A stretch of 64,000 nucleotides of DNA from Variovorax paradoxus (GTDB lineage Bacteria > Pseudomonadota > Gammaproteobacteria > Burkholderiales > Burkholderiaceae_C): NCBI RefSeq assembly GCF_029919115.1, contig NZ_CP123990.1, positions 3,286,001 through 3,350,000 on the forward strand, in the 5' to 3' direction. A model generated the notes under the pieces. That model did no database searches. It was not told the origin of the DNA and saw only the letters and a program-made list of their open reading frames with translations. Of this stretch, positions 832 through 8,048 are shown in pieces. Position 1 is the stretch's first letter. Every line of letters begins with the position of its first letter. Position numbers and translations under genes: made by a program.

Positions 832-1230
832 ATGAGCGTGCAGGCCCTGCGCTCTTCCTTCGGCAACAACTGCCACTGGTGCGGCTTGCCGATGGATTTT
901 GCGGAGCCTCGCAGCACGCCTGACTCGGCCACCATCGAGCACTTGAACGACTCGACGCTGGGCGGCGTTCGCAAGCAGAAGCACCGGCGCCTTGCCCACG
1001 CAATCTGCAACCGCACGCGCAACGAGTTCAAGCTGCAAGCCGAACGGAATTTCCAGCGCTGGCTTGCCCAGCGGGTCGAACTCAGCCGAGTCGTTCGTGT
1101 TGCGGACCTGGCCGCTGCTGAGCCGGCTGCTATGCCGGCTGAGACGAGCCCCGCACCACCAGCTGCCCCGGCAGAAGCAACTGACGTGCTGCTACATCCA
1201 GCCCCTGCAGCCGTTCGATCAGGCACGTAG
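832..1230 (+). CDS. small HNH-like zinc protein, hypothetical
   Basis: A 132-residue protein. Near the N-terminus there is a CHWCG knuckle (residues 14-18), then ATIEHL and KHRRLAHAICNRTRN. The Cys-x2-Cys, Asp/Glu-His and later His/Cys spacing matches the zinc-stabilised HNH nuclease (beta-beta-alpha) fold, although a complete H-N-H triad cannot be assigned with confidence. The last third is Ala/Pro-rich and lies antisense to the 3' end of the lacI-type gene: the genes overlap tail to tail by 101 bp (1130-1230). Start chosen at the first ATG after ridA, 27 bp downstream of its stop. It could be a DNA-binding or nuclease protein; the function is unknown. Confidence 0.6.
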   Translation: MSVQALRSSFGNNCHWCGLPMDFAEPRSTPDSATIEHLNDSTLGGVRKQKHRRLAHAICNRTRNEFKLQAERNFQRWLAQRVELSRVVRVADLAAAEPAAMPAETSPAPPAAPAEATDVLLHPAPAAVRSGT

Positions 1231-2155
1231 CGGCGCAGCGGCCGATGGCGTCGGTGGGCTGCGCCACGGTGCTCAGGCCGGGGCCGATGAGCGAAGCCCA
1301 CTCCGGGTCGTCGAAGCCGACAAAGCCCAGCTCCTGCCCGAACTGCCACCCCAGGCGCGCCATGGCCTGTGCGACACGCAGCGTGACCACCGCATTGCCC
1401 GCGACCACCGCCGCACGGCGCCCGCGCTTTGCGCGCCGATGCAAGGCGCGCAAGGCTTCGTCCAGCGCATCGCTCTCTCCCTCGACGCTTTCGAACACCT
1501 CGCCCGCCACGCGCGGCTCGTGCGCAGCCACGCAGGCGCCGAAGGCCGCAGTGCGTTCGCGCCGCGAGCTCACGCCCTTTTGCGGCTCGGTCACGTAGAG
1601 CAGTTCGCGGTAGCCGCCTTCGACCAGATGGCCGCAGGTGTCGCGCATGGCCGAATGGTTGTCGAGCGAGACGAAATCGGTGTGCATGCCGGCATGCCGC
1701 CGGTCGACCAGCACCGCGGGCTTGCCGTGCAGCGTGACCGCATCGACCACGTTGCTGCCGCGCCCCAGCGTGTTGAGAATGAAGCCGTCGACCTGGTAGC
1801 CCGCAAGCGCATCGATGGCCTCGCGCTCACGTTCGCTCTCGTTGCCCAGGTTGAACAGCATCACCAGGTAGCCCGCGTCCTGGCAGGCCTTCTCGGCGCC
1901 GCGCAGCACCGCGACTGAATACGGGTTGGTGATGTCGGCCACGATCAGTCCGATGAGGCGCGAGCGACCGTGGCTCAGTGCTTGCGCCATGGGGCTGGGG
2001 GTGTAGGCCAGCTTGGCGATGGCTGCTTCGACGCGCGCTGCGATGTCGCGGCTCAAGAGGCGCTCGCGGTGGTTGAGAAAGCGCGAGACGGTGGCTTTGG
2101 AGACGCCTGCGGCTTCGGCGACGTCGGCGATGGTGGCGCGCCCGCTCGGGTTCAT
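1130..2155 (-). CDS. ptxS: LacI-family repressor, PtxS-like regulator of 2-ketogluconate genes
   Basis: A 341-residue LacI/GalR regulator. Residues 7-28 (ATIADVAEAAGVSKATVSRF and after) form the helix-turn-helix, the hinge helix is about 50-62, and the remainder is a periplasmic-binding-protein-like effector domain starting RLIGLIVADITNPYS. It lies downstream of kguD on the same strand, with a 124-bp gap holding a repeat pair. The operon promoter 5.9 kb upstream contains TGAAACCGGTTTCA at 8026-8039, the operator known for Pseudomonas PtxS, whose effector is 2-ketogluconate. No copy of that operator lies directly before this gene, so it may be read from the operon promoter and thereby autoregulated. 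The start has an aaggag Shine-Dalgarno. Identity as PtxS rests on context and operator. Confidence 0.8.
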   Translation of the reverse strand: MNPSGRATIADVAEAAGVSKATVSRFLNHRERLLSRDIAARVEAAIAKLAYTPSPMAQALSHGRSRLIGLIVADITNPYSVAVLRGAEKACQDAGYLVMLFNLGNESEREREAIDALAGYQVDGFILNTLGRGSNVVDAVTLHGKPAVLVDRRHAGMHTDFVSLDNHSAMRDTCGHLVEGGYRELLYVTEPQKGVSSRRERTAAFGACVAAHEPRVAGEVFESVEGESDALDEALRALHRRAKRGRRAAVVAGNAVVTLRVAQAMARLGWQFGQELGFVGFDDPEWASLIGPGLSTVAQPTDAIGRCAATCLIERLQGLDVAARQLLLPGQLVVRGSSQPA

Positions 2156-2162
2156 GGATTTG

Positions 2163-2263
2163 CTCCTTCCCCCTTTGGGGGAAGGTTGGGAAGGGGACAG
2201 GCAGAGCGCGCAATGGGTACGCCGCTTGCCCCCAACCCTGCCCTCCCCCAGCGGGGGAGAGAG
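2163..2263. repeat. inverted pair of REP-like elements
   Basis: Two copies of a G/C-rich element face each other between kguD and ptxS. The left copy runs 2163-2196 and contains the hairpin CCCCC-TTT-GGGGG; the right copy runs 2228-2263 and, read on the minus strand, contains CCCCC-GCT-GGGGG followed by GGGCAGGGTTGGGG. Such intergenic ones are multi-copy in Comamonadaceae. The pair could act as an mRNA-stabilising or terminating structure between the two genes. Confidence 0.65.
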
Positions 2264-2279
2264 AAAATCCTCGGGGGCT

Positions 2280-3263
2280 TCATGCGCCCGCCGTGTCGTA
2301 CGGCGCCGTCGGTTTCTCGCCGGCCAAGACCTGCAGAAGATTGGTCGTCGCCAGCTCAGCCATCGCGTGCCGCGTCTCATGCGTCGCCGACCCGATGTGC
2401 GGCAGCGGCGTGACACGCGGATGCGTGCGCAGCGGCGAATCGGCCGGCAGCGGCTCTTTCGCGAACACGTCCAGGCCCGCGGCGCGCAACGTGCCGTGGT
2501 CGAGCGCATGCAGCAATGCGGTTTCGTTCACCGTCGCGCCACGGCCGCCATTGATGAAAGACGCCCCCGGCTTCATGCGCGCGAAGAAGCCGGCATCGAT
2601 CATGCCGCGCGTCGCGTCGGTGAGCGGCAGCATCGCCAGCACGATGTCCGAGCGCGAGAGCAGTTCGTCAAGCGGTGTATGGGTTGCGCGGCCTCGCAGC
2701 TCTGGCGCCTGTGCGGCCAGGTCGACGGGCCGGCGCGAGTGGTAGAGCACCGGCATGCCAAAGCCGAGCGCCGCGCGCCGGGCCACGGCCTGGCCGATGC
2801 GGCCAAAGCCGAGAATACCCAGCGTCTTGCCGTGCACGTCCGTGCCGAAGAACTCTTCGCCGATGTTCTTGGTCCAGCGCCCTTCGCGCACGAGGTTCGA
2901 GAGCTCGACCACGCGGCGCTGCGTCGCCATCAATATCGCGAACACGGTATCGGCCACCGTCTCGGTCAGCACGTCAGGCGTGTGGCACAGCACGATGCCG
3001 CGCTTGTGCAGTTCCGCCAGCGGATAGTTGTCGACACCGACCGACACGCTCGAAATCACCTTGAGCTGGGGCGCCGCATCGAGCAGCGCGGCATCGATGT
3101 TGTAGCTCGAACCGATCAGCCCGTTCGCGATGCCGAGCGCCGCGGCAAAAGCCTCGGGCTCCTTGCGCGGATCGGCAACGGTCACATGGTGCGCGGCCTG
3201 GAGGCGCGCGAGTTGGTCTTCAGGCAGCGCCCTGAACACAAGCACGTTCTTCTTGTCGGTCAT
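2280..3263 (-). CDS. kguD: 2-hydroxyacid dehydrogenase, probable 2-keto-6-phosphogluconate reductase
   Basis: A 327-residue D-isomer-specific 2-hydroxyacid dehydrogenase. The nucleotide-binding motif GFGRIG is at residues 152-157; the catalytic triad of the family is visible as Arg241 (NGGRGAT), Glu270 (DVFAKEP) and His289 (PLPHIGS). In the kgu pathway KguD reduces 2-keto-6-phosphogluconate to 6-phosphogluconate with NAD(P)H, feeding Entner-Doudoroff. The fold alone would also fit a glyoxylate/hydroxypyruvate or 2-ketogluconate reductase (GhrB type); the neighbouring kinase and kguE argue for KguD. Start ATG lies one base after the kguK stop, so the genes are tightly coupled. An upstream in-frame extension exists but would overlap kguK. 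Confidence 0.82.
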   Translation of the reverse strand: MTDKKNVLVFRALPEDQLARLQAAHHVTVADPRKEPEAFAAALGIANGLIGSSYNIDAALLDAAPQLKVISSVSVGVDNYPLAELHKRGIVLCHTPDVLTETVADTVFAILMATQRRVVELSNLVREGRWTKNIGEEFFGTDVHGKTLGILGFGRIGQAVARRAALGFGMPVLYHSRRPVDLAAQAPELRGRATHTPLDELLSRSDIVLAMLPLTDATRGMIDAGFFARMKPGASFINGGRGATVNETALLHALDHGTLRAAGLDVFAKEPLPADSPLRTHPRVTPLPHIGSATHETRHAMAELATTNLLQVLAGEKPTAPYDTAGA

Positions 3264-3264
3264 T

Positions 3265-4218
3265 TCAGAGTCCTGCTTCTTCGAGCTCGGCGCGCGTCGG
3301 CAAGCCTTCGGTGTCGCCCAACACCTGCACCGCGCGTGCGCCGATCCATGCACCGCGGCGCACGGCGTCGGGCACGCTCTTGCCTTCGAGCAATGCGCTC
3401 ACCACGCCGGCCGCAAAACCGTCGCCGGCGCCCACGGTGTCGATCACTTCCTTCACCGGAAAACCGTCGACGCGTCCGGTGCCCGCCACGTCGCTGTCGT
3501 AGTAAGCGCCTTCGGAACCAAGCTTGACGACCACCAGCTTCGCGCCGCGCTCCCGATAGAAGCGCGCCACGTCTTCGGGCTGGGTATGGCCGGTGAGCAG
3601 CAGGCCCTCTTCGATGCCGGGCAGCACCCAGTCCGCGCGCGAAGCCAACTCGTTGATCCAGTGGCGCATGGTGTCGGTCGACGGCCACAGCGTAGGCCGC
3701 AGGTTGGTGTCGAACGAGATGGTGCGGCCGGCCGCGCGCATCACGTCCATCGTCTTGAGCGCGGCCTGCAGGCTGGTGTCGGAGATGGCCGGGAACACGC
3801 CCGTGGCATGCAGGTGGCGCGCCGAACGCAGCCAGGCTTCGTCGACATCGGCCGGGCCCATGTGGCTCGCGGCCGAGCCCTTGCGGTGGTATTCGACCGG
3901 CGGATCGCTGCCGTCGGTGACGCGTCCCTTGAACTGGAAGCCGGTGCGCTGCGCGGGGTCGCAGATCACGTGCGAGCAGTCGATGCCCTCGCCCTTCATC
4001 GTTGCAATCAGGTAGCGCCCCATCGAGTCCGTGCCCAGCCGGCTGGCCCAGCCCACCTTGAGGCCGAGACGCGAAAGGCCGATGGCAACGTTGGTCTCGG
4101 CACCGGCGGTGCGCTTGTAGAACGCCTCTGCGTTTTCCAGCGGACCGGGCCGGTCGGCCACGAGCAGCAGCATGGCCTCGCCGAACAGGGCAACGTCGAA
4201 AGCGGTCGGTTCTGTCAT
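3265..4218 (-). CDS. kguK: PfkB-family sugar kinase, probable 2-ketogluconate kinase
   Basis: A 317-residue ribokinase/PfkB enzyme. The N-terminal block AGAETNVAIGLSRLG (38-52) is PfkB signature 1 and DTVGAGDGF (260-268) is signature 2, with Asp266 as catalytic base. The stretches HLHATGVFPA and NLRPTLWPS are the pattern of KguK and KdgK kinases, which phosphorylate 2-ketogluconate or 2-keto-3-deoxygluconate. The operator and the kguE and kguD neighbours favour KguK: ATP plus 2-ketogluconate to 2-keto-6-phosphogluconate. Six bases separate it from kguE and one base from kguD. A KDG kinase role is the main alternative and cannot be excluded by sequence reading alone. Confidence 0.82.
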   Translation of the reverse strand: MTEPTAFDVALFGEAMLLLVADRPGPLENAEAFYKRTAGAETNVAIGLSRLGLKVGWASRLGTDSMGRYLIATMKGEGIDCSHVICDPAQRTGFQFKGRVTDGSDPPVEYHRKGSAASHMGPADVDEAWLRSARHLHATGVFPAISDTSLQAALKTMDVMRAAGRTISFDTNLRPTLWPSTDTMRHWINELASRADWVLPGIEEGLLLTGHTQPEDVARFYRERGAKLVVVKLGSEGAYYDSDVAGTGRVDGFPVKEVIDTVGAGDGFAAGVVSALLEGKSVPDAVRRGAWIGARAVQVLGDTEGLPTRAELEEAGL

Positions 4219-4224
4219 GTATTT

Positions 4225-4968
4225 CTAGGCTCGCGCGGAGCGGATGAAATCGATTTGCGTGCGTGCGACGGCCATCAGGTCGTCGCCCACCAGAGGGTAT
4301 TCGATGGCATGCGGCACATCGGCCGGCAACGCGCGCAGCACGGTACGCCACGGCGCGGCCGAGTCGCCCAGCGGCACCGCCACCCACTTGTGCGGCAGGC
4401 GCTGCGCGCCCTTGCAATGCACGTAGCGCACGCGACGGGCCAGCGCCTGGGCCGCCTGCAGCGGGCATTCGCCGAGCCAGTGCCAGTTGCCCATGTCGAA
4501 GGTCATGCCGAGTTCGACGCCGGCCTTGTCGGCCACGTCGAAGAAGGTCTGCAGTGCCGGTAGCGTGCCGGCGCGCACCGTCTGGTCGTTTTCGATCAGC
4601 AGTTCGACGCGCGTTTCCGCGAGCTGCACCTTCAAGCCCCACAGCGACCCGTGAGACGACGCACGAAAGTCGCCGATCGACATCTTGAGCCGCTTGGCGC
4701 CGAGCTTCGTTGCGGCGGCAATGCCGCGTGCCAACGCTGCGCTGTCGAGCCAGCCCCCTTCGGCCCACAGCCCTTCGGGGCTGGAATACACGGAGGCAAG
4801 CCCCGCCAGCGAAGGCAGTTCCGCATCGGGGTTGCGCAGCATTTCGCCGCGCACCTCGACCGAATCGGCGCCTGCCTCCAGCGCCAGTTGCGAGCACCAG
4901 AGCTGGCCATGCCGGCCCACCTCGGCCGCACCGAAGGACGACAGAGAAACGAGTACCTGAAAAGACAT
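4225..4968 (-). CDS. kguE: sugar phosphate isomerase/epimerase family TIM-barrel protein, KguE-like
   Basis: A 247-residue protein of the xylose-isomerase-like TIM-barrel (AP endonuclease family 2) superfamily. Visible blocks are GADSVEVRGEML, VYSSPEGLWAEGG, ELLIENDQ, GMTFDMGNWHW and YVHCKGAQ; their Glu, Asp and His residues are the expected metal ligands. It matches the KguE protein that begins the Pseudomonas kguEKTD operon, annotated there as a putative epimerase without proven reaction. The start MSFQVLVSL is chosen because its ATG shares one base with the stop of the ABC ATPase (TGATG), whereas the longer open frame would run far into that gene. It precedes kguK by 6 bases. Confidence 0.8.
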   Translation of the reverse strand: MSFQVLVSLSSFGAAEVGRHGQLWCSQLALEAGADSVEVRGEMLRNPDAELPSLAGLASVYSSPEGLWAEGGWLDSAALARGIAAATKLGAKRLKMSIGDFRASSHGSLWGLKVQLAETRVELLIENDQTVRAGTLPALQTFFDVADKAGVELGMTFDMGNWHWLGECPLQAAQALARRVRYVHCKGAQRLPHKWVAVPLGDSAAPWRTVLRALPADVPHAIEYPLVGDDLMAVARTQIDFIRSARA

Positions 4969-5723
4969 CAGTGGGCCTGGTGCGAACTCAGGATCTGCCC
5001 GAGGAACTGGCGCGTTTTTTCGTTCTGCGGATTGCTGAAGAATTCCTGCGGCGGCGCCTGCTCGACGATCTTGCCCTCGGCCATGAAGATCACCCGGTCG
5101 GCCACGCTGCGGGCAAAGCCCATTTCGTGCGTGACGCACAGCATGGTCATGCCGTCTTCGGCGAGGCCGATCATGGTGTCGAGCACTTCCTTGACCATTT
5201 CGGGGTCGAGCGCCGAAGTGGGCTCGTCGAACAGCATGATCTTGGGCGTCATGCACAGCGCGCGCGCAATGGCCACGCGCTGCTGCTGCCCGCCCGAGAG
5301 CTGGCTCGGGTACTTGTTGGCCTGCTCCGGAATGCGCACGCGCGTGAGGTACTTCATGGCCACCTCTTCCGCCTGCGCCTTGCTCATGCCGCGCGAGCGC
5401 ATCGGCGCGAGCGTGCAGTTTTCCAGGATGGTGAGATGCGGAAACAGGTTGAACTGCTGAAACACCATGCCCACTTCTGCACGCACCGCGTCCACGTTCT
5501 TGCCGCCGGCCGTCAGGTCGATGCCGTCGACCACGATGCGGCCCTTCTGCACCGTTTCGAGCCGGTTGATGCAGCGGATGAGCGTCGATTTGCCCGAGCC
5601 CGAAGGCCCGCAGATCACGATGCGTTCGCCCTGGCGCACCGACAGGTCGATGCCGGTCAACACCTGGAATTCACCGTACCACTTGTTGACCGCTTCCATG
5701 CGGATGATCGATTCCGTCGTCAT
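4968..5723 (-). CDS. polar-amino-acid-type (PAAT) ABC importer, ATP-binding protein
   Basis: A 251-residue GlnQ/HisP-type ATPase. Walker A GPSGSGKST is at residues 39-47, the signature LSGGQQQR at 142-149, Walker B MLFDEP at 163-168, and the switch His in CVTHEMGFA near 200. It energises import by the two permeases and the binding protein encoded just upstream. The family normally carries polar amino acids and opines; here the gene is fused translationally (TGATG) to kguE, so it is probably part of the 2-ketogluconate-type operon. Cytoplasmic, membrane-associated. The ATPase assignment is firm; the substrate is inferred from context. Confidence 0.93.
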   Translation of the reverse strand: MTTESIIRMEAVNKWYGEFQVLTGIDLSVRQGERIVICGPSGSGKSTLIRCINRLETVQKGRIVVDGIDLTAGGKNVDAVRAEVGMVFQQFNLFPHLTILENCTLAPMRSRGMSKAQAEEVAMKYLTRVRIPEQANKYPSQLSGGQQQRVAIARALCMTPKIMLFDEPTSALDPEMVKEVLDTMIGLAEDGMTMLCVTHEMGFARSVADRVIFMAEGKIVEQAPPQEFFSNPQNEKTRQFLGQILSSHQAH

Positions 5724-5758
5724 GCCAGGATTCCCTTTTCTTCTTCAGCCCTTGCGGT

Positions 5759-6556
5759 TCACTGCATCTTCGGCAGGTCGGCCTGCAGCCACTTCTGGTA
5801 GAGCTTGTTGAGCTCGCCATTGGCGGTGTTCTTGGCAACGAATTCGTTGACCGCCTTGTGCAGCTCTTCCTGGCCCGGACGCATGGCAATGCCCATCGAT
5901 TGCTGCACCAGCGTGAACTTGTTCTCGTAGCTGCCGGCGGGCACGCGCTTGGCAATTTGCGCGGCCACGGTCACCGAGCAGCCGATGGCGTCGACCTGGC
6001 CCGAAATCAGCGCCTGCATGGCCGAGGCGTCGTCGTCGAAGCGGCGGATTTCGGTGCCTTCGGGTGCGGCCTTGGTCACGGCGACGTCTTGCGTCGAAGC
6101 GCGGGCCACGCCCACGCGCAGGCCCTTCAGGTCGGCTGCGCCCTTGATGGGGGTCTTGGTGGCGCCGTACAGCACGATGGTGGCGGCTGCATAGGGCTGC
6201 GAGAACTGCACCTGCTTGGCGCGCTCGGGCGTGATGGCCAGCGAAGCGACCAGCACGTCGACCTTGTTGGTCAGCAGGAAGGGAATGCGGTTGGGGCCGG
6301 TCACCGGCACGATGTTGGCCTTGACGCCCCACTCTTTCGCGAGCAGCTTGGCCACGTCGGCGTCATAGCCGTCGGGCTGGTTCTGCGCATTGGTGGTGCC
6401 GTAGGGCGGAAAGTCGACCAGCATGCCGATGGTGATCTCGCCCTTTTTCTTGATGTCGGCCACGGATTGGGCCGATGCGAAGGGTGCGAACACGGTGAGC
6501 GCGGCGCCAAGGCCAAGGGCTGCCAGGGCAACGCGGCGGGTGGTGGTACGGGTCAT
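5759..6556 (-). CDS. PAAT ABC importer, periplasmic solute-binding protein (SBP family 3)
   Basis: A 265-residue periplasmic binding protein. Residues 1-29 form a signal peptide (MTRTTTRR, hydrophobic core, FASA cleavage site). The mature part starts with DIKKKGEITIGMLVDFPPYG, the standard opening of SBP_bac_3 proteins, and contains DADVAKLLAKEWGV and the two-lobe pattern with VGVARAST. Members usually bind amino acids through an Arg/Asp pair. The operon holds no amino-acid gene but has three kgu-type enzymes, so the ligand may be a sugar acid. It is encoded 58 bp after the second permease, and 35 bp before the ATPase. Confidence 0.92.
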   Translation of the reverse strand: MTRTTTRRVALAALGLGAALTVFAPFASAQSVADIKKKGEITIGMLVDFPPYGTTNAQNQPDGYDADVAKLLAKEWGVKANIVPVTGPNRIPFLLTNKVDVLVASLAITPERAKQVQFSQPYAAATIVLYGATKTPIKGAADLKGLRVGVARASTQDVAVTKAAPEGTEIRRFDDDASAMQALISGQVDAIGCSVTVAAQIAKRVPAGSYENKFTLVQQSMGIAMRPGQEELHKAVNEFVAKNTANGELNKLYQKWLQADLPKMQ

Positions 6557-6614
6557 TGGATGTGTCTCCTGAAATTAAGAAGGAAGCGACGAGAAGAGAG
6601 AAAACGAAAAACGA

Positions 6615-7268
6615 TCAGCGTGCGAGCGCCTGTGCACGCTTGCGCTCCATGCGCCCGGCCAGCAATGAAAGCGGCCAGCAGATCGCAAAGTAGATGGCGG
6701 CCACCACCGAGAACACGATGAGCGGCTGGAAGGTGGCGTTGTTGACGATTTGCCCGGCGCGCGTTACCTCCACGAAGCCGATGATGGCCGCGAGCGAGGT
6801 GCCCTTGATGATCTGCACCAGGTAGCCCACGGTGGGCGCCAGCGCAATCTTGAAAGCCTGCGGCAACACCACGTCGCGCATGCGCGCGCTGTACTTGAGG
6901 CTCAGGGCCTCCGCGGCTTCCCACTGGCCGCGCGGAACCGCCTCGATGCAGCCGCGCCAGATTTCGCCCAGGAAGGCCGCGCTGTTGAGGATGAGCGCCA
7001 CGCCCGCAGCAATCCACGGGTTGATGTCCAGCCCCAGCACCGGCGCGCCGAAGAACACAAGGAACAGCTGCAGCAGCAGCGGCGTTCCCTGGAAGATCTG
7101 GATGAAGGTGGTCGATACGCCGCGTGCCCACGCCGATTCGGACGTGCGCATGAGCGCAATGATCAGCCCCAGGATTGCGCCGCCGACGAAGGCAATGGCC
7201 GAGAGCGCCAGCGTCCATTTGGCCGCTTCGAGAATGAACAGGAATTCGGGAAAACCGAAGGTACGCAT
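6615..7268 (-). CDS. PAAT ABC importer, permease 2 (HisM/GlnP type)
   Basis: A 217-residue inner-membrane permease with about five membrane helices. It starts with a helix AKWTLALSAIAFVGGAILGL and has IFQGTPLLLQLFLVFFG, a hallmark of the His/Glu/Gln/Arg permease family. The EAA loop that docks on the ATPase is EAAEALSLKYSARMRDVVLPQ. It pairs with permease 1, 27 bp upstream, to form the channel. Adjacent permeases of this kind usually make a heterodimer. Confidence 0.92.
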   Translation of the reverse strand: MRTFGFPEFLFILEAAKWTLALSAIAFVGGAILGLIIALMRTSESAWARGVSTTFIQIFQGTPLLLQLFLVFFGAPVLGLDINPWIAAGVALILNSAAFLGEIWRGCIEAVPRGQWEAAEALSLKYSARMRDVVLPQAFKIALAPTVGYLVQIIKGTSLAAIIGFVEVTRAGQIVNNATFQPLIVFSVVAAIYFAICWPLSLLAGRMERKRAQALAR

Positions 7269-7295
7269 GATGGTTCTGGCTCCGTCCGGGGCTTG

Positions 7296-7967
7296 TTACC
7301 GGCGGTCCGGATAGTTGAGCGTGCGCTTGTAGATCAGCTTGAACATGGCCGAGAAGGCCAGTGCCAGCGCGAGGTAGATGGCAGCCACCACGATGTAGAT
7401 CTCGAAGCTGCGGAAGGTCTGCGACTGCAGGTTGGCGGCCACCGAGGTCAGGTCGTCGGCCGAAATGACCGACACCACGGCCGAGCTCAGCATCAGCAGG
7501 ATGAACTGGCTCGTGAGCGCCGGGTAGATGGCCTTGAGCGCAGGCTTGATGATGACGAAGCGGAAGATCTCCCAGGGCTTGAGGTTGAGCGCCCTGCCCG
7601 CCTCGATCTGCCCCTTGGGAATCGACTCGATCCCCGCGCGGATGATTTCGGTCGCATACGCGCCGAGATTCACCACCATGGCCACCAGCGCAGCTGTTTG
7701 CGGCGACCAGCGCAGGCCGATGGCCGGCAGCGCGAAGAAGAAAAAGAACAGCTGCACGAGGAACGGCGTATTGCGGATGACCTCGATGTACGCGTTGATG
7801 ACAAAGCGCAGCCAGCCCGGCCCCGACGTTTTTCCCCAGGCACAGAAGATGGCGACCACCAGGCCGATCAGCGTGGCGGAAAGCGAAAGCTGAATCGTGA
7901 TCCAGGTGCCCTTGAGCAGCAGCGGCCAGGCAGCGAAGACGGCGTCGAATTGAAACTGGTAGTTCAT
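7296..7967 (-). CDS. PAAT ABC importer, permease 1; first gene of the kgu-type operon
   Basis: A 223-residue membrane permease with the same architecture as permease 2: opening helix PLLLKGTWITIQLSLSATL, the family motif EVIRNTPFLVQLFFFFF and EAA loop EAGRALNLKPWEIFRFVII. The ATG at 7967 (MNYQFQFDAVF) is preferred over an in-frame GTG at 7979, because family proteins begin at this point; neither has a strong Shine-Dalgarno. It is the first gene after the promoter with the TGAAACCGGTTTCA operator, leaving a leader of about 45 bases. Confidence 0.92.
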   Translation of the reverse strand: MNYQFQFDAVFAAWPLLLKGTWITIQLSLSATLIGLVVAIFCAWGKTSGPGWLRFVINAYIEVIRNTPFLVQLFFFFFALPAIGLRWSPQTAALVAMVVNLGAYATEIIRAGIESIPKGQIEAGRALNLKPWEIFRFVIIKPALKAIYPALTSQFILLMLSSAVVSVISADDLTSVAANLQSQTFRSFEIYIVVAAIYLALALAFSAMFKLIYKRTLNYPDRR

Positions 7968-8019
7968 GTTTGCGAGCACGGGCGTTGCCGTGCGCGTGCC
8001 CCAAAAGCAATGCTTGCAG

Positions 8020-8048
8020 CTTATATGAAACCGGTTTCAGAACGACCT
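8020..8048 (-). promoter_or_regulatory. kgu-type operon promoter with PtxS operator
   Basis: On the minus strand a -10-like TATAAG (8020-8025) directly follows the perfect palindrome TGAAACCGGTTTCA (8026-8039). This is the sequence published as the binding site of PtxS in Pseudomonas. The operator occupies the spacer between -10 and the position of the -35 (8043-8048, not a good match to consensus), so repressor binding would block RNA polymerase. The position of the transcription start is inferred. Confidence 0.85.

Follow-up and report, generated by a model that had tools for sequence, protein, structure and literature searches.

An amino-acid-type ABC importer probably replaces KguT in the kgu operon of Variovorax paradoxus and its relatives

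ABC importers of the PAAT family are usually annotated as amino-acid carriers, and a locus of Variovorax paradoxus raises the question of what such an importer carries when its genes lead an operon of sugar-acid enzymes. The locus lies in a 64,000-nt stretch (contig NZ_CP123990.1, positions 3,286,001 to 3,350,000; the window) of a 5.81-Mb one-contig genome, and consists of eight genes on the minus strand, running from 7967 to 1130 in the order permease–permease–binding protein–ATPase–kguE–kguK–kguD–lacI. An earlier reading of the same letters without database searches (the sequence-only reading) had proposed that the importer, standing in place of the MFS transporter KguT, serves 2-ketogluconate or a similar sugar acid. 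Linkage to kguK, an upstream operator, the lack of a close KguT and the binding pocket support this proposal, and with a probability of roughly 0.8 we suggest that a PAAT-type importer of 2-ketogluconate replaces KguT in an operon for the uptake and catabolism of this compound. Gene order, operator, linkage, pocket residues, the lack of a close KguT and the presence of edd are read directly from sequences, and from them we infer ligand, transport and regulation. The features of the locus are as follows.

8026-8039, no strand: PtxS operator TGAAACCGGTTTCA, 58 bp ahead of the first permease start, matching the known PtxS palindrome
7296-7967, minus strand: ABC permease 1, PAAT type (PF00528, 84.7 bits; TIGR01726 HEQRo_perm_3TM, 100.4 bits, cut-off 42.2)
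6615-7268, minus strand: ABC permease 2, PAAT type (PF00528, 68.4 bits; TIGR01726, 101.6 bits, cut-off 42.2)
5759-6556, minus strand: periplasmic binding protein, SBP_bac_3 (PF00497, 128.7 bits, cut-off 26.4)
4968-5723, minus strand: ABC ATPase (PF00005, 135.9 bits; nearest model GlnQ NF007027, 327.1 bits, under the equivalog cut-off of 379)
4225-4968, minus strand: kguE, TIM-barrel protein (PDB 1yx1, E 6e-40; PF01261, 27.8 bits, under the cut-off of 31.1)
3265-4218, minus strand: kguK, putative 2-ketogluconate kinase of the PfkB family (PF00294, 192.5 bits; PDB 4du5)
2280-3263, minus strand: kguD (PF02826, 191.9 bits; PDB 9m0t)
2156-2279, minus strand: 124-bp gap between kguD and lacI with an inverted-repeat element (from the sequence; near-palindrome at 2165-2185)
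1130-2155, minus strand: LacI-family regulator, PtxS-like as judged from context and operator (PF00356 and PF13377; exact PtxS operator in the locus)

Intergenic spacing from the first permease to lacI is 27, 58, 35, –1, 6, 1 and 124 bp, the stop of the ATPase gene and the start of kguE sharing one nucleotide (TGATG). The eight co-directional genes, their families, the range of spacing (–1 to 124 bp) and the TGATG junction, all described by the sequence-only reading, were thereby found again. The permeases are of the His/Glu/Gln/Arg/opine type and the ATPase of the GlnQ/HisP type, and binding protein, permeases and ATPase all three place the importer in the PAAT family by homology. Moreover, kguE, kguK and kguD are all present, as befits a kgu operon. 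At E<=0.01 KguE has a single PDB match (E 6e-40), namely 1yx1, “hypothetical protein PA2260”, and PA2260 is, we assume, kguE. The published identification of PA2262 as kguT (PMC6237876) is consistent with this assignment. The top PDB matches of KguK and KguD are, respectively, 4du5, “PfkB” (552 bits), and 9m0t, “Probable 2-ketogluconate reductase” (233 bits), and KguK is 52–59% identical to the kguK products of KguT-type operons.

The association of the importer with kgu genes extends far beyond the window. Among 299 genomes of the same family, the binding protein (E<=1e-70) was found in 41 and KguE (E<=1e-15) in 34, with both in 30, the binding protein only in 11 and KguE only in four; per genome, eight candidates were scored for the binding protein, nine for KguE within the family and six for KguE in the order and phylum. 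In 37 of the 41 genomes, picked by the binding protein alone, its gene and kguK are co-directional on one contig. Three of the remaining four (G457, G464, G483) are broken by contig ends, the kgu genes of G457 and G464 sitting at the edge of another contig, and the fourth, G577 (locus L119), is a true exception. A larger set, in which the window-type binding protein was recognised at a threshold of 230 bits, comprises 115 loci (108 distinct). It was drawn from the window, from 52 stretches read around binding-protein and KguE genes of the family and six further KguE genes of the order (two weak KguE matches, E ~9e-4, were left out), from 18 stretches added from other orders of the class, and from 80 named GTDB loci. 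In 103 of the 108 distinct loci the binding-protein gene lies within 6 kb of kguK on the same strand; the five unlinked ones are L076, L079, L113, L248 (contig edge) and L119.

The 80 named loci are the best 80 of 557 relatives, picked via KguE and likeness to the window and hence biased to the window type. At least part of the importer is present in 74 of them; it is absent from L197 and three Azohydromonas loci, while L222 and L259 start at or beside kguE on their contigs. The carriers include Variovorax, Acidovorax, Simplicispira, Pseudacidovorax, Xenophilus, Polaromonas, Ramlibacter, Rhodoferax, Curvibacter, Comamonas, Aquincola and Roseateles, as well as Candidimonas, Paralcaligenes, Pollutimonas, Pusillimonas, Parapusillimonas and a metagenome-assembled genome of Castellaniella, the latter six genera presumably belonging to Alcaligenaceae. 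The closest organism-named relatives of the binding protein are from Variovorax, with Variovorax sp. DXTD-1 (L182) providing a near named locus. Since the linkage recurs over so many genera, chance co-location of importer and kgu genes is ruled out.

Some of these loci hold a reduced set of enzymes. In L111, L112, L114–L118, L120 and L121 the importer and kguK are linked and kguE is missing, so that kguE, to which no reaction is assigned, seems to be dispensable in loci such as L111; in P. plecoglossicida, kgu deletions including that of kguE are described as delaying or blocking the use of 2-ketogluconate (PMC11678583). L225 and L230, from Candidimonas and Paralcaligenes, have the order importer-kguE-kguK and no kguD (L225:8759-10530), and in L225 a gene of KDPG aldolase (TIGR01182, 245.4 bits, cut-off 156.05) is convergent to kguK.

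KguT itself, at E<=1e-100, was found in none of the 299 family genomes (five candidates scored per genome), and it is absent from the window locus, in agreement with the earlier view of the importer as standing in its place. When all candidates were scored, four KguT-bearing control genomes gave E<=2e-197, and the best MFS protein of the window's genome was 32% identical. Across the phylum, KguE (E<=1e-12) occurs in 24 of 398 genomes, three of them of the window type, three from another family of the order and 18 from other orders. There kguE, kguT and kguD stand together in 19 loci (3/3 in the other family and 16/18 in the other orders), 18 of which have a kguK match; the last two loci from other orders hold kguE and kguD only. 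As KguT-type operons elsewhere pair kguE and kguD, mostly also kguK, with kguT, the importer appears to have taken the position of KguT. A kguT deletion in P. aeruginosa is reported to abolish growth on 2-ketogluconate (PMC6237876), and therefore an organism lacking KguT would need another carrier.

Upstream of the first permease lies TGAAACCGGTTTCA, identical to the experimentally known palindrome bound by Pseudomonas PtxS, a regulator whose effector is reported to be 2-ketogluconate (PMC3402500, PMC11678583, PMC5902321). The end of the operator is the end of the interval that the sequence-only reading had given for the operon (8039), although the operator was not named there. It occurs as a single copy in the whole genome, and remains single with one mismatch allowed; from the base composition of the window, ~0.005 exact copies and 0.27 copies at <=1 mismatch are expected in a genome of such size. 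Of the 108 distinct loci, 103 can be read upstream of the first permease; among these, 84 have the exact operator within 200 bp of the permease and three only the half-site form TGAAA-N4-TTTCA. This, together with the gene context, allows us to predict that the LacI-family protein of the window is a PtxS-type regulator. A consensus scan yielded no sigma-70-like promoter. A helix-turn-helix pattern comparison of regulators, which matched 43 places, was not used, as the pattern was too strict and missed gammaproteobacterial regulators.

The window locus shares with the Pseudomonas kgu operon (ptxS, kguE-kguK-kguT-kguD) the genes kguE, kguK, kguD and that of a LacI-family regulator, as well as an identical 14-bp operator, but differs in that KguT is absent, four ABC genes lead and lacI comes last. 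Two further features of the region are a G+C-rich inverted repeat between kguD and lacI, whose near-palindrome CCTTCCCCCAAAGGGGGAAGG (2165-2185) is absent elsewhere in the window at <=3 mismatches, and a plus-strand open reading frame of 132 amino acids at 832-1230, without a Pfam match, which runs opposite to lacI and shares 101 bases with its 3' end.

The binding pocket also departs from that of amino-acid importers. In E. coli GlnH we take Thr70 and Asp157 to be the contacts of the alpha-amino group and Arg75 to bind the carboxylate. All 114 aligned binding proteins have Ala and Ser at the equivalents of Thr70 and Asp157, and all of them retain Arg at the position of Arg75 (a binding-protein fragment, L252, fell under the score limits and was dropped from both the alignment and the locus count). 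E. coli GlnH, HisJ and ArgT have Thr or Ser and Asp at the alpha-amino positions, and Asp157 is kept in 11 of 15 paralogues from the window's own genome. Hence, of the features expected in an amino-acid-specific PAAT protein, the alpha-amino contacts are lost and the carboxylate-binding Arg is kept. The importer resembles GlnHPQ and HisJQMP in the families of its binding protein, permeases and ATPase and in fold, and differs from them in this pocket and in having sugar-acid enzymes as partner genes. The AlphaFold model of the binding protein (pLDDT 85.4) shows the general fold of amino-acid-binding proteins, which is uninformative on the ligand, and its GPNR motif is only partly distinctive, own-genome paralogues having NR at that place. 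One other SBP_bac_3 protein of this genome (L125; G000:C1:4834684-4835340) has Ser in place of Asp157 and Gly in place of Thr70, and keeps Arg75.

Taken as a scheme, the binding protein would catch 2-ketogluconate in the periplasm, the conserved Arg gripping its carboxylate and Ala and Ser lying where the alpha-amino contacts were, and the two permeases and the ATPase would carry it inward. KguK would then convert 2-ketogluconate to 2-keto-6-phosphogluconate, and KguD the latter to 6-phosphogluconate, which Edd would pass to the Entner-Doudoroff pathway; edd, the expected sink of 6-phosphogluconate, is present in the genome (902.7 bits, cut-off 708.25). The PtxS-like protein would sit on TGAAACCGGTTTCA and repress the operon until 2-ketogluconate comes. 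With kguD, the PtxS operator and the complete set of enzymes all in place, 2-ketogluconate is the likeliest ligand of the window's importer.

Several observations weigh against this assignment. In sixteen of the 103 readable loci, L119 among them, the 200 bp ahead of the permease contain no PtxS box. In ten of the sixteen a half-site or exact site is found elsewhere in the locus, ahead of lacI in nine (L075, L085, L087, L099, L115, L116, L223, L224, L235) and ~0.8 kb before the permease in L241; six have none. Five loci that link the ABC genes to kguK lack kguD (L112, L115, L121, L225, L230). The Azohydromonas loci L236, L244 and L261 have the order lacI-kguE-kguK-kguD, with neither ABC genes nor kguT adjacent, and their genomes yield neither a binding protein at E<=1e-60 nor an orthologue of KguT. 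Three genomes of the window's family, all from a single genus, also show this order without an adjoining importer (L102–L104); L102 and L103 appear to correspond to the genomes of L244 and L236. Finally, Variovorax J22R193 (L197) has only kguE-kguK, its best KguT-like protein is 31% identical, and its genome, a draft, gives no binding protein at E<=1e-60; this strain, too, is scored as 2-ketogluconate-positive (PMC12396923), which implies another route or a loose test.

The same study describes eight Variovorax type strains, all as users of 2-ketogluconate (PMC12396923), and three of the four whose loci were read carry the operon (L192, L194, L196). As all eight are positive, importer-less J22R193 included, the trait does not discriminate, and we dropped growth as a strong argument.

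Who else uses a PAAT importer for such compounds? A second type (L101:4114-9694, L106:5114-10822; Herbaspirillum-like) also stands ahead of kguE-kguK-kguD with a LacI-family gene, and likewise keeps Arg75 and has lost Asp157; it differs in the order binding protein-permease-permease-ATPase, in a binding protein 44% identical to that of the window and in Pro at position 157. No pair of PtxS half-sites was found in the L101 and L106 stretches. Named relatives of the L106 binding protein include those of Herbaspirillum and Cupriavidus. In trees of KguK and KguD (39 rows each, window-type rows thinned to one in three, rows under 250 bits and kinases of 2-keto-3-deoxygluconate (KDG) left out), window-type and KguT-type rows are mostly separate, with modest support of deep forks, and the second ABC type appears in two places, L101 within the group of the window and L106 close to that of KguT. 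As L101 and L106 fall in different parts of the trees, the transporters next to these enzymes may have been swapped repeatedly, although the contig-split loci L077 and L080, labelled “none”, add false changes.

A sister importer, L119, has the gene order of the window, a binding protein 54% identical, and the same pocket and GPNR motif, but no kgu genes. Its neighbours (L119:2579-14505) encode an FAH-family hydrolase, an SDR protein, an aldehyde dehydrogenase and a DctP-type TRAP binding protein; the best model of the hydrolase is NF053535, 2,4-didehydro-3-deoxy-L-rhamnonate hydrolase (431.4 bits, cut-off 500). L119 probably represents a further sugar-acid pathway that is served by an amino-acid-type pump. 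All three types (window, Herbaspirillum and sister) have lost the alpha-amino Asp and kept the carboxylate Arg. Because of the context of L119 and the loci without kguD, such as L225 with its KDPG aldolase, the PAAT family may have a branch for sugar acids, with the ligand possibly varying by member. A wider version has a whole branch, comprising both importer types of kgu operons and the sister type (L119), going over from amino acids to keto and aldonic sugar acids. Its members would perhaps serve organisms that scavenge 2-ketogluconate produced by neighbours, and makers of the compound would keep KguT; we put this forward tentatively, at slightly less than even odds.

Importers of glucosaminate and of opines are precedents in the PAAT family for amino-bearing sugar derivatives. 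The extension of PAAT substrates claimed by the sequence-only reading is reasonable for ligands free of an amino group. Among the matches listed from open-access full texts (RegPrecise, Fitness Browser and subscription papers lay outside this scope), none describes import of 2-ketogluconate by an ABC or PAAT system, and the phrases “ketogluconate ABC” and “ketogluconate-binding” are absent from one set of 22 open-access papers. PtxS and ketogluconate are not mentioned in the main text of PMC4052901 and PMC5343134.

Could the importer carry something else? It might take up KDG, or several 2-keto sugar acids, KguK acting partly as a KDG kinase. The top NCBIfam match of KguK is indeed KDG kinase, but at 190.3 bits, far under the cut-off of 400, and its identity of 52–59% to the kinases of KguT operons speaks against this reading. 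The absence of kguD from the five ABC-kguK loci, the KDPG aldolase gene adjoining kguK in L225 and the position of the sister importer L119 next to what may be a further sugar-acid pathway all speak for such a ligand. On the other hand, kguD, superfluous for KDG, is present in the window and in most relatives, and PtxS of pseudomonads is reported to respond to 2-ketogluconate. We consider KDG unlikely for the window. Glucosaminate (2-amino-2-deoxygluconate) or a like amino sugar acid is a much poorer candidate. Mutant-fitness data reportedly implicate PAAT importers in the use of D-glucosamine and glucosaminate, no such paper being among the matches listed, while the alpha-amino contacts are gone in all 114 binding proteins, none of the eight genes matches an ammonia-lyase family, and the operator is of the PtxS type.

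An ordinary amino-acid importer that merely happens to precede the kgu genes would agree with the fold and families, which are those of amino-acid importers, and with the label “polar amino acid transport system” of many named close relatives. The conservation of the linkage (37 of the 41 genomes picked by the binding protein) with a shared operator, the 1-nt overlap of the ATPase gene and kguE in the window, the lack of a close KguT in the family and the lost pocket contacts argue against it, and we regard this explanation as the least probable of all. Uptake of 2-ketogluconate by the PAAT importer, in place of KguT, hence remains our preferred interpretation.

The source of the 2-ketogluconate is a separate matter. 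The subunit of gluconate 2-dehydrogenase (PF13618) has no match in the window's genome, and for this reason the organism may take up 2-ketogluconate produced by other makers. In the 67 genomes examined, PF13618 scores above its cut-off more often alongside KguT (13 of 19 genomes) than alongside the window-type importer (10 of 41; Fisher p 0.0017); this comparison is confounded by lineage, as the lineages differ, the family may cover other enzymes, and it is not independent evidence. It hints weakly that KguT marks makers of 2-ketogluconate and the ABC importer its scavengers.

If the proposed function is true, two pocket residues would mark a branch of PAAT importers and lead to corrected labels for many genes, and the missing 2-ketogluconate transporter would be named for many Comamonadaceae and some Alcaligenaceae. 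The kgu operons would then provide a clean example of unrelated transporters feeding one pathway. Moreover, if users of the ABC importer are scavengers and users of KguT are makers, the difference would be relevant to cross-feeding, e.g., around roots.

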